64,000 bases of DNA from an uncultured Gammaproteobacteria bacterium (GTDB lineage Bacteria > Pseudomonadota > Gammaproteobacteria > Steroidobacterales > XN24): positions 1 through 64,000 of the forward strand of contig CAMYOC010000051.1 of assembly GCA_947259915.1 (NCBI GenBank), in the 5' to 3' direction. Below are positions 1,930 through 46,643 of this stretch, in pieces. The first letter of the stretch is position 1. Every line of letters starts with the position of its first letter. The notes beneath the pieces are model-generated. The model saw only the letters and a program-made list of their open reading frames with translations. It was not told the DNA's origin and made no database searches. Both the position numbers and the translations under genes were made by a program.

Positions 1930-2514
1930 ATGAAAACGAGAATGAAAGCCGTTTTGGTAGCAGGCTTGCTGATGATGCTGGGATCCACGGCCGCGAATGC
2001 AGCGCTCGTTACCGTGGACTTTGACGGGTTTGCAGACGGCACAATTTTGGCTGCCGGCACCGACTTGGGCGGGATCAGTTTCGACCAGGCCCTCGAGATT
2101 GATGACGGCGATATTACTGGGTTGCTTCCGGGTATGTCTCTGCCAAATTTCGCGTTGAACTTCGATGTCTTCGCCAGCAGCGTGTCCGGTTCATTCGCGG
2201 GAACGGTGGATTTCCTGTCGGTTCTTGCCGGCGACGTTGGCGGTGATATCGACACCATTAGACTTGATGCTTTTGACGCTGACGGGTTCTTAGTAGACAG
2301 CGCGATTTTCACGGGAGCAGCCGGTGAAACGCTGACTGTTTCCGGCTCCGGAATTGCGAGCTTTGCGCTCGTCGACGTGAACGATACTCTATTCATCTTC
2401 GACGATATTGTTTTTAACACTGAAGATGCCGTTGATACTCCCGAGCCCACCTCCCTCGCCCTACTCGGCCTTGGCCTGGTTGGCATGGGTCTGAGACGGC
2501 GCAAGGTTGCCTGA
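1930..2514 (+). CDS. PEP-CTERM sorting domain protein (2)
   Basis: A secreted protein of 194 residues carrying the same exosortase sorting signal as its neighbour. The ATG beginning MKTRMKAV is chosen because it has GGAG seven bases upstream and opens directly into a signal peptide (VLVAGLLMMLGSTAANA). Starting at 1831 would add a second hydrophobic stretch ahead of it. The mature part is rich in Asp, Gly, Phe and Val and begins VTVDFDGFADGT, resembling the beta-sandwich PEP-CTERM proteins of unknown role. The C-terminal 22 residues (PEPTSLALLGLGLVGMGLRR and on) match those of gene 1 except for one residue, although the rest of the two proteins is unrelated. A terminator follows at once. Confidence 0.85.
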   Translation: MKTRMKAVLVAGLLMMLGSTAANAALVTVDFDGFADGTILAAGTDLGGISFDQALEIDDGDITGLLPGMSLPNFALNFDVFASSVSGSFAGTVDFLSVLAGDVGGDIDTIRLDAFDADGFLVDSAIFTGAAGETLTVSGSGIASFALVDVNDTLFIFDDIVFNTEDAVDTPEPTSLALLGLGLVGMGLRRRKVA

Positions 2515-2548
2515 CAAGACAACAACAAGAAGAAGGTAGAATTGAGAG

Positions 2549-2574
2549 CCCCGCCAAGTGCGGGGTTTTCTTTT
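2549..2574 (+). terminator. rho-independent terminator after PEP-CTERM gene 2
   Basis: Stem CCCCGC (2549-2554), loop CAAGT, stem GCGGGG (2560-2565), then TTTTCTTTT. It lies 35 bases after the stop codon. Confidence 0.85.
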
Positions 2575-2710
2575 GTCCATCGCAACTGTCCGAACGCCGA
2601 TTGGCGCGCAGCGTTGATCTCTCGTGGCGGCTTGATGGAGGGTTTTTGGGTGGGTCTGACCTGCTCTGTAAGAATTGTCTTAATAGTTACAATATTTGAC
2701 AAAGATCACC

Positions 2711-2727
2711 GGCGGAGAGGGCGGGAT
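2711..2727 (-). repeat. 17-base copy of the tRNA-Ser 3' end
   Basis: GGCGGAGAGGGCGGGAT is identical to 2911-2927, the acceptor and T-arm end of tRNA-Ser, exactly 200 bases away. It lies downstream of the tRNA in the direction of transcription. Bases 2728-2865 between the copies contain hairpins (GGCCGAC-TTC-GTCGGCC) and two GGTTCGAACC T-loop-like palindromes. Confidence 0.8.
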
Positions 2728-2865
2728 GGATTCGTTTGCTCCGCAAACTTACCCCTGCGGGGCGGCGTCGCGTTGCTCCACCGTCTGTCGGCCGACTTCG
2801 TCGGCCTCGGTTCGAACCCTTGTTGTCTATGACCGCGGGTTCGAACCCCGCGCTTCAGCGGTATG
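2728..2865 (-). other. structured, gene-free tRNA-Ser downstream tail
   Basis: This gene-free stretch is dense in short inverted repeats: TTTGC/GCAAA, CCCC/GGGG, GGCCGAC/GTCGGCC and CGCGGGTTCGAACCCCGCG. Two elements mimic a tRNA T-arm. Reading frames here are spurious; they run through tRNA-like sequence and are not real proteins. It could be a decayed tRNA copy, a repeat family, or part of a longer processed transcript from the tRNA-Ser gene. Confidence 0.5.
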
Positions 2866-2904
2866 AAAAACAGAGAGGGGCCGCGTGGGCCCCTCTCTGT
2901 TTTT
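2866..2904. terminator. perfect bidirectional terminator after tRNA-Ser
   Basis: A perfect 17-base inverted repeat, AAAAACAGAGAGGGGCC (2866-2882), loop GCGTG, and its complement (2888-2904). A-tract and T-tract on either side let it stop transcription from both strands. It begins six bases after the encoded CCA of tRNA-Ser. Confidence 0.9.
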
Positions 2905-2909
2905 AGATC

Positions 2910-3000
<91 letters not shown>

Positions 3001-3018
3001 GGAAAATCAGGACCGCGA

Positions 3019-3047
3019 ACTGTAACCGAGGCCCGGCACCTCTGCAA
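3019..3047 (-). promoter_or_regulatory. tRNA-Ser promoter
   Basis: On the minus strand: TTGCAG, 17 bases, then TACAGT, followed by a GC-rich discriminator TCGCGG. The block GGTTACAGTTCGCG (3014-3027) is identical to one in the tRNA-Leu promoter at 54658-54671. Predicted start is about 12 bases before the tRNA. A GC-rich discriminator is typical of stringently controlled stable-RNA promoters. Confidence 0.65.
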
Positions 3048-3051
3048 CGCG

Positions 3052-3799
3052 TCAGAGGACGTCTAATATCCGCTCGCTGCGGATCTGCCATCCGGCGGCC
3101 CCACCCTCGGTCAACTCCATTTCCTTGAGCACCGAGCGGAAGTTCGGGGCCTGGCCGAAGCGCTGCACGAATTCGGCCTTGACGCTGCCGTCAGGCTGAG
3201 TCTCGACTTCCAGCGATGTCGATCTGGGTCTCGGCGGGAAACGTAAAGCGCTCGCGTTGTGTCGTCTGCCAGTCCGCATGGTCACTGTAGCCGGCCGGGG
3301 CAAAATCGCTGGTGTAGTACTGGAAGTAGCCATCCACGTTCCGTTCGGTCCAGATGGCTGCCCAGTCGACCAGCAGCTGCGCGATCTGGTTGGTCAGGAC
3401 CGATGCACCGGGAATCAGTACCGGCCCGGAACCGGATCCCGAACCGCTTGGCTGGCCGTCGCGCCAGGCCAGCGGAACGGGCTGCACCATCGCCAGCTGC
3501 GCGACCGGCAGCCCCTCCGGATTGGGCGCGCCTGGCTGCGCATAGTATCTCGGTGGCCGCTCGAGACAGATACCGTCACCGGCCTTGACCACCCCCTGCC
3601 GCGGGCCGACCGGCACCGGCACGGCCAGATCGGGGTCTGGTTCGTCCAGTCCCTCGGGCACCTTTAGCGGGCTGATGACCGTCGCCTCGAGATAGGCCGG
3701 ATTGATGCGGCAACTGGTCTTCTGGTCCCGAAACGGGTTGCAGCCCGTGATCAGCACCACGGCGCTACACCACAGCACCAGGGCACCAAATCGACTCAC
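3052..3799 (-). pseudogene. BamC-like lipoprotein with NTF2-like domain, frameshifted
   Basis: The gene starts with GTG at 3799, overlapping the dapA stop by four bases (GTGA), and opens with a lipoprotein signal ending LITGC. The next part (YLEATVISPLKVPEGLDEP) resembles the unstructured N-terminus of BamC, the Bam-complex lipoprotein encoded after dapA in E. coli. A GSGSGSG linker leads to an NTF2-like/Cds6-type domain (QIAQLLVDWAAIWTERNVDG). Near 3215-3230 the frame breaks: the first frame ends about 20 codons later at 3191, while the homologous sequence (SLEVETQPDGSV to SERILDVL) continues in the next frame to 3052. A one-base insertion or two-base deletion accounts for it. It is a sequencing error or a real pseudogene. 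The BamC identity is tentative. Confidence 0.6.
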
Positions 3800-40574: not shown

Positions 40575-41335
40575 ATGATCCTGCTGCGATTCGCCGTACT
40601 TATCCTCTATCTGCTCGCGGCCTGGCTGTTGATCTCGGTGCGTTATTCAGACCTGGATCAGCGTCGCGCACAATCGGCCGCGCCGGCTCTGTTGATCGGA
40701 TTATCAGGGTTGCTCCTGCACGGCCTGCTGCTGTACCAGACGGTGATGATCCCTGACGGACCCGATCTCAGCGTGACCAATGTGTCCTCGCTGGTAGGCA
40801 TGCAGATCGCGATCATCGGCCTGCTCGCAGCCCTGGCGCCGAGATTTCGCGGTCTGTGCGCGACCCTGCTGCCAATCGCCGCCATCGCCGCGTTGGCCAC
40901 CGGCGCCGGCAAATTTCCGTCATCGCCTACACGCTGCTCAGTATCGGCGCGTTTATCGCCATTCTGATCTGGCTCCAGGACCGTGCCCTGCGTAACCGGC
41001 GGCCCGAGTCCTGGGTCCGGGTGTTGCCTGCCCTGGAGACCATGGAGCAGGTCCTGTTTATGACCATCCATGGCGGCGTGGTCCTGTTGACGCTGTCGGT
41101 ATTCAGCGGCCTGATCTTTGTCGACAACTTCTTCGCGCAACACCTGCTGCATAAGGCCGTGCTCTCGATCGTCGCTCTGGTGGTCTTCGCCATCCTGTTG
41201 ATCGGACGCTGGCGCATGGGGTGGCGCGGCCGCAAGGCGATCCATTGGACGCTCGCCGGCTATGGCGTCCTCGCCCTGGCTTATTTCGGCAGTCGCCTGA
41301 TCCTGGAACTCATGCTCGGCCGCCAATGGGGCTGA
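40575..41335 (+). pseudogene. ypjD: inner-membrane YpjD/CcsA-like protein, disrupted
   Basis: In E. coli ypjD (corE) lies between ffh and corC, and this stretch has that place. Frame one (40575-40967) begins MILLRFAVLILYLLAAWLL and holds the N-terminal membrane segments up to ALATGAGK. The remainder (ISVIAYTLLSIGAF, then EQVLFMTIHGGVVLLTLSVF and MGWRGRKAIHWTLAGYGVLA) is in another frame (to 41335). About 20-25 residues expected between the halves are missing, so the break at about 40905-40930 is a deletion with a frameshift, not just an indel. The protein is probably non-functional, or the assembly is wrong here. Confidence 0.8.
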
Positions 41336-44057: not shown

Positions 44058-44221
44058 TCTGGTACCTGGATCACGGACAGGGAATTGCCCGGCAAGGCAA
44101 CTTTACCGTTGGAGCACAGTGCTGTCTGCCTGTATTCGGGCGGACGGCTCGCGCGCACGCTGCTAAATCACGGCGGCAAGAAGCGCGCTCCGGGATTGTT
44201 GCTGGCCACGGGAAACATCAC

Positions 44222-45046
44222 ATGTACGGCGACTTTGAAGTCATCGAGGAGATCGGCAAGGCCCCGGCGGGCAACCTGTATCTCGCCCAGCGCGGTGCTG
44301 ACGGCCTTGCTGCCGTGATCAAGACCGTGCGGCTGCTGGACGACTTTGCCCCGCGCGATCAGGACGAGGCACGTAAACAGTTCTTCCGCGAGGTGGAGAC
44401 GGCCTCGAAACTGCACCACCCCTGCATCCGCAAGATCCTCGGTTCCGGTGAGACTCAGGGTGTTGCCTGGCTGGCCATGGAGCAGCTCAGTGGTCGGCCG
44501 CTGGAGGATTTTGTTCCGGGTCCGCCTCGGCTGGAGGTCGACGAGGCGATCGAGCAGATTGCTTTCGCGGCGGACGCCCTGGCCTACGCCCATGGTCGTG
44601 GCGTAGTACACCGGGACATCTGTCCGGCAAAGATCATCTATGACCGGGACCGGGGCCGCATCAAGATCACCGACTTCGGTTTCGCTCGCCTGGCGCAATC
44701 AGGCCATACCACGGTGCGTCTGCTGCATGGCAAGCTCTCATTCAAATCGCCGGAAGATCTGGCCGGACAACCGGTAACTTTCGCTTCAGACCTGTTCTGT
44801 CTTGGTGTTACCCTATATCACCTGTTGACTGGCCAGCTGCCGTTCCAAGGAGACTCAATGGTGGGGCTCATGCAGAACATCCTGCACGAAGCGCACGAAG
44901 CGCCCTCCAGTCATCGGCCGGATTTGACACCGGCCCTCGACGCTATCGTCGAGCGGGCCTTGCACAAGGATCCTTCTGCCAGATTTAGCGGCGGCGCGGA
45001 AATGGCCGAAGCCCTGCGGGCGTGCGCTAGCGCCGAGGCGGCATGA
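44222..45046 (+). CDS. atypical Hanks-type serine/threonine kinase
   Basis: A 274-residue cytosolic kinase-fold protein with no membrane segment. The VAIK lysine is Lys34 (AAVIKTVRLL), the alpha-C glutamate is near 57, the catalytic Asp132 is in HRD, and DFG is at 151-153 (ITDFGFAR), with SPE in place of APE. The glycine loop is weak (IGKAPAGNLY). The catalytic loop is HRDICPAK: the lysine two residues after Asp132 is Cys134 and the metal-binding asparagine is Lys137. Activity is uncertain, so it may be a pseudokinase. It overlaps the PP2C gene by four bases (ATGA). Confidence 0.88.
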   Translation: MYGDFEVIEEIGKAPAGNLYLAQRGADGLAAVIKTVRLLDDFAPRDQDEARKQFFREVETASKLHHPCIRKILGSGETQGVAWLAMEQLSGRPLEDFVPGPPRLEVDEAIEQIAFAADALAYAHGRGVVHRDICPAKIIYDRDRGRIKITDFGFARLAQSGHTTVRLLHGKLSFKSPEDLAGQPVTFASDLFCLGVTLYHLLTGQLPFQGDSMVGLMQNILHEAHEAPSSHRPDLTPALDAIVERALHKDPSARFSGGAEMAEALRACASAEAA

Positions 45047-45900
45047 GCGGTCCAGACGGCAAAACAACGCGATTCCCGAGCCTCAAGGGCAAGATAAAGG
45101 TCGTACGTTGCAGCGACACTGGACGCGTGCGCGATCACAACGAAGATGCGGTGATCTCGGACATGGATATCGGCCTGCTGGCGCTGGCGGATGGAATGGG
45201 CGGCTATAACGCCGGTGAGGTGGCCGCAGAACTTGCGGCCAACGTAGTCACCAAGCTCATGCGCGAGGCCTCGGTGCGCAATAATCGCGGGGAGACAGAC
45301 AGCGAGAGCGGGCTGATGCGCCAGACCATCGCGCTGCGCGACGCTGTTGCGCGAGCCAACAAGATCATATGGCAGACGGCGCAAACCCAGGCCAACTGTC
45401 AGGGCATGGGGACGACCCTTGCCACCTGCATGTTTTTTGACGACCGGGTGTCGATCGCGCATGTGGGCGACTCCCGGGTCTACCGCCTGCGCAACGACCG
45501 TTTCGAGCAGCTGACGCTTGACCACTCCCTGCTCCAGGAACTGGTGGACCGGGGTTTCTACTCACGCGAGGAAGCGCAGCGGTCTACCAACAAGAATTAT
45601 GTTACAAGGGCGCTGGGCGTCGAGGCTTCGGTGGACGTCGAAGTCCAGGAAGAGTCGGTGGAGCCCGGTGACATCTATCTGCTTTGCTCAGATGGCCTGA
45701 CGGATATGGTCGAAGATGAAGATATTCATTTAACTATCAGTACTTTTAGTGCTAATCTTCAGACCGTTGCTGAGCAGCTGATCGAGCTGGCAAACGAAAA
45801 TGGAGGCCGAGATAATGTCTCGGTCGCGCTGGCGGAGGTATCGACCTCGTTCGCGGTGCACAACGGATTTATCGGTCGCTTGAAGTCCTGGCTCGGTTAG
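45043..45900 (+). CDS. PP2C-family serine/threonine phosphatase
   Basis: A 285-residue metal-dependent phosphatase with the complete motif set: RVRDHNEDAV, ADGMGGYNAGEVAA, GMGTTLATC, AHVGDSRVYRL, SDGLTD and GGRDNVSVALAE. The aspartates for the Mn/Mg pair are present. The chain extends about 20 residues past the domain. Coupled to the kinase, it is the expected partner, and an FHA protein follows. Confidence 0.95.
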   Translation: MSGPDGKTTRFPSLKGKIKVVRCSDTGRVRDHNEDAVISDMDIGLLALADGMGGYNAGEVAAELAANVVTKLMREASVRNNRGETDSESGLMRQTIALRDAVARANKIIWQTAQTQANCQGMGTTLATCMFFDDRVSIAHVGDSRVYRLRNDRFEQLTLDHSLLQELVDRGFYSREEAQRSTNKNYVTRALGVEASVDVEVQEESVEPGDIYLLCSDGLTDMVEDEDIHLTISTFSANLQTVAEQLIELANENGGRDNVSVALAEVSTSFAVHNGFIGRLKSWLG

Positions 45901-45938
45901 CAGGGCGGACGGCACAAGCAGCAGGAACGGAAAGACCC

Positions 45939-46643
45939 ATGGCAAGACTCGTACTCAGCCTCGACGGCCAGGTGCTCGCCGAATACAACATGAGCAAGGA
46001 GCGCTACACCGTTGGCAGGCTTCCGGACAACGATGTGCGTATCGATAATCCCGCGGTCAGCGGTCATCACTCGCTGATCATCAACATCCTCAACGACTCC
46101 TTTCTCGAGGATCTGAACAGCACCAACGGCACCTACGTCAACGGCAAGCTGATCAAGAAACACGCGCTGCAAAACGGCGACCTGGTCACTATCGGCCACC
46201 ACCAGCTGCGCTTCGTAGATCAGCAGGTAGACGACGTCGATCAGGACGAGTTCGAAAAGACCATGGTGATCAATCCGCGCTCCCAGGACCGGGCAGCGCT
46301 GGAACAGGTCAAGCAGGCGGTGAACGCGGTCTCCGGCGGCGACAATGTCGCCAGCCTGCGCGGTACGCTGCCGACCGCGAAGCTGCAGGTGTTGACCGGT
46401 CAGTTCGCCGGACGTGAGTTGAACCTGGTCAAGGCGCTGACGACGCTGGGCCAGACCGGCGGCCACGTCATCGCGGTAACCCGACGTCCTGACGGCTACT
46501 ACGTGGTGCGTGTTGCCGGCGCAGACGACAGCGACAGCACGCCGCAGGTCAATGGACGCGAAGTCGGCGCCAAGGCCCAGCTGCTGGAAGACAGCGATGT
46601 GATCGAGCTGGCGGGCGTCAAGATGGGCTTCTTCGCCACCTGA
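45939..46643 (+). CDS. double FHA-domain protein
   Basis: A 234-residue phosphothreonine-binding protein. The first FHA domain is complete (GRLPDNDVRI, SGHHS, STNGTYVNG) at about 20-90. The second, about 125-232, keeps QVNGREVG but has lost the GR and SxxH motifs. It is likely the substrate or reader for the kinase/phosphatase pair. In type VI secretion a similar trio occurs, but no T6SS gene is near. Confidence 0.9.
   Translation: MARLVLSLDGQVLAEYNMSKERYTVGRLPDNDVRIDNPAVSGHHSLIINILNDSFLEDLNSTNGTYVNGKLIKKHALQNGDLVTIGHHQLRFVDQQVDDVDQDEFEKTMVINPRSQDRAALEQVKQAVNAVSGGDNVASLRGTLPTAKLQVLTGQFAGRELNLVKALTTLGQTGGHVIAVTRRPDGYYVVRVAGADDSDSTPQVNGREVGAKAQLLEDSDVIELAGVKMGFFAT

Follow-up and report, generated by a model that had tools for sequence, protein, structure and literature searches.

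The first gene of a kinase-PP2C-FHA module in the window (the whole 64,000-nucleotide stretch of DNA that was analysed) encodes a Hanks-type kinase that is predicted to be unable to transfer phosphate. The reading that we prefer, and that we regard as moderately probable, is that it is a lineage-specific kinase that has kept its fold and that its present role is most likely that of a non-catalytic binding partner.

Residues of the kinase and of its partner genes

The kinase ORF is translated as MYGDFEVIEEIGKAPAGNLYLAQ...AVIKTV...HRDICPAKIIYD...ITDFGFAR, and its Pfam match is Pkinase PF00069 (130 bits, E 1.2e-37). In residues 130-137 it has HRDICPAK in place of HRDxKPxN, with Cys at the Lys position and Lys at the Asn position, as a preliminary description had stated. 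This was confirmed. It is not a chance difference: in an alignment of 104 orthologs, 102 from outside the family and 2 from the sister genus, HRD[IV]KP[ASG]N was found in 102/102 of the former and 2/2 of the latter, K134 and N137 are invariant, and there was no intermediate or HRDICPAK-like loop among the 104. A conserved alternative catalytic loop was therefore rejected; because all relatives have the standard loop (104/104), the altered one is private to the window lineage. The HRD Asp, DFG and VAIK lysine had been described as retained, and they are indeed present as Asp132, Asp151 and Lys34, alongside Glu57. The preliminary description was right about the catalytic loop but had omitted the change of Gly14 to Ala (G14A) in the glycine loop and the changes in the activation/P+1 segment, which reads TTVRLLHGKLSFKSPE in the window versus T[RK]TGIxLGTPSYMSPE in the family, so that GTP has become GKL. 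Thr163 in this segment is an invariant position that is kept, and in the alignment it corresponds to Thr171 of PknB. Together the catalytic and activation changes amount to at least 10 base changes over approximately 115 nt, all in frame. Since K134C alone replaces all three bases of its codon (AAG to TGT), the loss of catalysis would not be very recent.

Among the features of active Hanks-type kinases, the window kinase has the bilobal fold (PF00069), the VAIK Lys, the HRD Asp and the DFG Asp, and it lacks the catalytic-loop Lys and Asn (C134, K137), the P+1 Thr (T171K) and the second glycine-loop Gly. Since the catalytic loop has lost both its Lys and its Asn, and the activation segment the P+1 Thr and a second Thr, normal Ser/Thr phosphotransfer is unlikely, and the additional activation/P+1 losses speak against Ser/Thr kinase activity of any kind. 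The retained Lys34, Glu57 and Asp151 may still allow nucleotide binding, and with Asp132 also in place these residues would be compatible with either nucleotide binding or weak activity. The AlphaFold2 model, built with 27 sequences, has a pLDDT of 87.8 and a pTM of 0.87, and very low confidence is confined to activation-loop residues 158-169. The solved structures nearest to it are PknB kinase domains (TM ~0.83). Judged from this model, the kinase fold appears intact and PknB-like.

An intact fold with the VAIK Lys, alpha-C Glu, HRD Asp and DFG Asp kept, and with a new Lys three residues from the lost one, would also be expected if the kinase were active with a rearranged site in which Lys137 or another residue replaces the catalytic-loop lysine and the metal is held by the DFG Asp alone. 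Some so-called pseudokinases are active, Arabidopsis ILK1 being an example (PMC9403797). We nevertheless consider this highly improbable, because the damage extends to the P+1 Gly-Thr-Pro, an activation-loop Thr and the glycine loop, the change occurs in a single genome, and no relative has an intermediate loop. Thus, of the two proposals in the preliminary description, that the kinase uses a non-standard mechanism or that it only binds substrates, the former is unlikely and the latter survives.

The PP2C ORF scores 245.9 with the NCBIfam Stp1/IreP PP2C model versus a curated cut-off of 230. In the FHA protein Pfam finds a single FHA domain (residues 23-86, 76.7 bits) with its pThr-binding motifs intact, and it gives no call for a second FHA domain in the C-terminal half. 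That half (46374-46640) is conserved and FHA-like below Pfam detection, and the Gly-Arg of its orthologs is Gly-Gln in the window (LGRPG...VNG...DVIELAG versus LGQTGG); by eye it is plausibly a divergent second FHA domain. The partners are therefore intact as had been claimed, and of the double FHA that had been described the N-terminal domain is firm and the C-terminal one is FHA-like by eye.

Table 1. Positions of the kinase, its altered and retained motifs and its partner genes in the window
Feature	Position	Strand	Evidence
Intergenic region between divergent radA and kinase; outgroups have the CHASE2 sensor and TPR-like kinase part here	44058..44221	+	Locus comparison
Hanks-type kinase ORF, 274 aa, sensor-less, predicted catalytically dead	44222..45046	+	Pfam PF00069, ortholog alignment, AF2
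Glycine-rich loop GKAPAG (family GxGAMG; GKGAMG to GKAPAG), second Gly lost	44255..44272	+	Ortholog alignment
VAIK lysine K34, kept	44321..44323	+	Invariant 102/102
Alpha-C glutamate E57, kept	44390..44392	+	Invariant 102/102
Catalytic loop HRDICPAK (K134C, N137K)	44609..44632	+	HRD[IV]KP[ASG]N in 104/104 orthologs
DFG, kept	44672..44680	+	Ortholog alignment
Activation/P+1 segment TTVRLLHGKLSFKSPE; T163 kept; T165V, G166R, L169H, T171K, P172L	44708..44755	+	Alignment; AF2 low confidence at 158-169
ATGA overlap of kinase stop and PP2C start; possible translational coupling	45043..45046	+	Sequence
PP2C Ser/Thr phosphatase (Stp1/IreP type), motifs intact	45043..45900	+	Pfam, NCBIfam, motif comparison
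FHA protein: N-terminal FHA with GR / SxxH / NG motifs; C-terminal FHA-like half	45939..46643	+	Pfam, motif comparison

The locus in related genomes

The genomes of the order that were compared share a conserved arrangement of the locus, Ffh-CcsA-CorB-(RadA), then kinase-PP2C-FHA, then (Alr)-(DnaB), and the window matches it with radA, kinase-PP2C-FHA and alr-dnaB. The neighbours in the window are housekeeping and metabolic genes (PutA, a TRAP transporter, an RNase R-type exonuclease and others), and the earlier statement that no secretion system is nearby holds for the window proteins scanned, which are part of its ORFs. A literature search on the CHASE2 kinase-PP2C-FHA module found nothing relevant. 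The usual kinase of the locus is 800-900 aa long, and the one that was examined in full length consists of an N-terminal CHASE2 sensor and a kinase. Compared with the CHASE2-sensor kinase of the same order (L088, 848 aa; its sensor-less sister form is L031, genome CP070833.1), the window copy occupies the same position between radA and PP2C-FHA and its kinase domain is ~40-55% identical, but it has neither the CHASE2/TPR part nor the catalytic-loop and P+1 residues. Its ATG lies 164 bp downstream of the RadA start. Thus, it belongs to the locus by synteny and lacks the N-terminal CHASE2 sensor. The sister genus (g4, 2 genomes) has a kinase of 273-274 aa, also without the sensor, with a GKAPLG glycine loop and with HRDIKP[AS]N, so the second Gly of the glycine loop is lost both there and in the window. 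A scan of the collection for close relatives gave a sister-genus genome that was already known and distant kinases only.

The kinase descends from a CHASE2-sensor Ser/Thr kinase of the membrane, the kind that usually stands first in the module, and it was dismantled in two steps. By the time the window genus and the sister genus separated, the CHASE2/TPR half had gone and the glycine loop had degraded. The branch that leads to the window alone then lost the Lys and Asn of the catalytic loop, the second Thr of the activation loop and Gly-Thr-Pro at P+1.

In 246 genomes drawn from the order, a close kinase match (E <= 1e-48) was found in 150 and the FHA protein (E <= 1e-45) in 191. At these thresholds 45 genomes have FHA and no close kinase, which is an upper figure because in some of them the kinase is more divergent or the locus runs into a contig end. 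Within the window's family, four other genomes lack the kinase and keep PP2C-FHA; in the genera g2 and g3 of this family PP2C directly follows radA. At least five genera of family f11 (L179-L182, L184, L186-L188) have likewise lost the kinase and retained PP2C-FHA. The preliminary description had taken the intact partners as a sign of a working signalling circuit that includes the kinase. That conclusion is not warranted, since many genomes without a kinase at the locus still have PP2C and FHA. These observations suggest that the module has a durable part, the PP2C-FHA pair, and a local kinase that is dispensable or replaceable. A single locus would thus display the stepwise dismantling of a kinase, from sensor kinase to sensor-less kinase to a predicted dead kinase to none, with the phosphatase and the reader kept throughout. 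In one genome (G178, L190) both kinase and PP2C are missing and the FHA gene stands alone beside radA and alr. In another, from a different family (G077, L183, ~2438-3491), there is a kinase relic in which the sensor and N-lobe are gone, HRDIKPAN is readable in the C-lobe, and PP2C-FHA is intact.

Rate and pattern of change on the window's branch

In a species tree of five flanking proteins the window joins the sister genus with a support of 100. The window kinase branch is 0.74 versus 0.18 for the five flanking proteins, an acceleration of about fourfold, and Tajima tests went in the same direction (p 0.005-0.15 by outgroup). The sister kinase branches are 0.195 and 0.215 versus 0.164 and 0.141, respectively, for the flanking proteins, and the PP2C (0.23) and FHA (0.25) branches of the window are near the expectation from the flanking proteins.

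An error of assembly or base calling could be suspected, because the window's genome (G000) is a 54-contig draft and a nearby gene is frameshifted. It is hardly credible as the source of dispersed in-frame substitutions, several of which need two or three base changes and none of which is an indel, and the divergence spans the whole kinase, which is 54% identical to the same relatives to which FHA and PP2C are 69-75% identical. The preliminary description had held that relatives with the standard loop would make the change either a sequence error or a dying gene. The relatives do have that loop, and the at least 10 in-frame base changes argue against the former, so that the latter is the rival to be weighed. 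The frameshifted neighbour is a CcsA/YpjD-like gene (40575-41335, between Ffh and CorB) that is split over two frames with ~52 nt missing near 40913 compared with the sister genus; it is either a real pseudogene or an assembly fault.

If the gene is dying, the kinase is dispensable in the family, its function was lost recently, and the open frame is a leftover that was perhaps coupled to PP2C for a time. This is possible, though we consider it unlikely. It agrees with the outright loss of the gene in the sister genera and in family f11 described above, which makes decay in progress a live rival, with the G077 relic that decays without an N-lobe, with the acceleration of the window kinase branch and with the frameshift of the CcsA-like neighbour in the same genome. 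Translational coupling through the ATGA overlap could also keep the frame open without function. On the other hand, the kinase has no stop or frameshift and its K134C is a change of three bases, and the G077 relic has the opposite pattern, a standard loop with the N-lobe gone. Moreover, neutrality over the whole branch was rejected (lnL -5272.8 versus -5256.5, 2 x delta lnL ~33). Six changes would hardly accumulate in a short neutral period, and over a long one stops would be expected. The dN/dS of the window branch was not separable from background because synonymous sites were saturated.

The position of the changes also argues against decay. Of the columns that are invariant in all orthologs, the window differs at 5/17 in residues 130-178 (K134C, N137K, G166R, T171K and P172L) and at 0/19 elsewhere, where the structural invariants lie (Fisher p 0.016), and at columns conserved at 97% radical changes number 5/19 within residues 130-178 and 0/38 outside (p 0.003), these being tests for which the sites were chosen after being seen. 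The four changes at 97% columns outside this segment are all conservative. The probability of obtaining all six replacements together with an ORF free of stops, computed for sites chosen in the same way, peaks at ~1e-12 under pure decay versus 1e-8 to 1e-9 if the ORF is held open. With the window's genus represented by one genome, retention of the fold is favoured over decay and not proven.

Class and possible role of the kinase

The best solved-structure match to the window kinase in both sequence and fold is the kinase domain of M. tuberculosis PknB, which, unlike the window kinase, belongs to the membrane PASTA kinases, is active, and has a standard loop and an activation loop phosphorylated at TxT. 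PknB works with a PP2C (PstP) and with FHA proteins. In CASK-like unusual kinases the catalytic-loop Asn is replaced and HRD is kept, as in the window kinase, whereas CASK has lost the DFG Asp and kept the loop Lys.

By the strict definition of bacterial pseudokinases, which is loss of the VAIK Lys, HRD Asp or DFG Asp (PMC12599244), the window kinase is not one since it keeps all three residues. By the broad definition of PMC4718504, under which at least one highly conserved motif for catalysis or for binding nucleotides is absent, it is one because of K134C, N137K and others. It does not fall in the GLW class, in which GLW replaces HRD (PMC12599244), because HRD is present; nor in the ActPs3/MviN class, which has degraded VAIK, HRD and DFG and a fusion to MviN, because it keeps the three residues and stands alone with 274 aa. 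Cys at the loop-Lys position has a precedent in the Leptospira CP1 pseudokinase, which has Hkslcpgn (Table 1 of PMC12599244). The window kinase is new as an example and of an already known kind. Surveys that use VAIK, HRD and DFG only miss kinases that have lost other catalytic residues.

What the predicted dead kinase may do is suggested by analogy. In M. tuberculosis, phosphorylation of the MviN pseudokinase domain by PknB leads it to recruit the FhaA FHA domain (PMC12599244). The likeness to MviN-FhaA (ActPs3 family) is that of an inactive kinase fold serving an FHA protein, which for the window kinase would be by putative docking. MviN differs in having lost all three canonical residues and in being part of a larger membrane protein and of a conserved family. 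Under the preferred reading of a fold-retaining dead kinase, PP2C and FHA have stayed under normal constraint and probably act on phosphoproteins made by other kinases of the genome. The dead kinase would be a soluble binding partner that possibly docks the FHA protein and/or PP2C, for example via the retained Thr163, were another kinase to phosphorylate it. The fuller form of this proposal, a phospho-regulated docking platform in which Thr163, phosphorylated by another kinase, would bind FHA and the operon's PP2C would release it, is speculative and we think it quite doubtful. If true, the protein would be analogous to MviN-FhaA with an independent origin, and it would pass the three-residue screen that is usual for pseudokinases.

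The other kinases in the window's genome include six with the catalytic-loop Lys and Asn, which can provide the PP2C and FHA proteins with phosphoproteins. A compensating second copy was not found in this genome, where the nearest paralog has a standard loop and 31% identity. At another place in the genome (G000:C28:10308-11827) a second small kinase, of 276 aa and with an HCDIKPEN loop, is directly followed by another PP2C-like gene.
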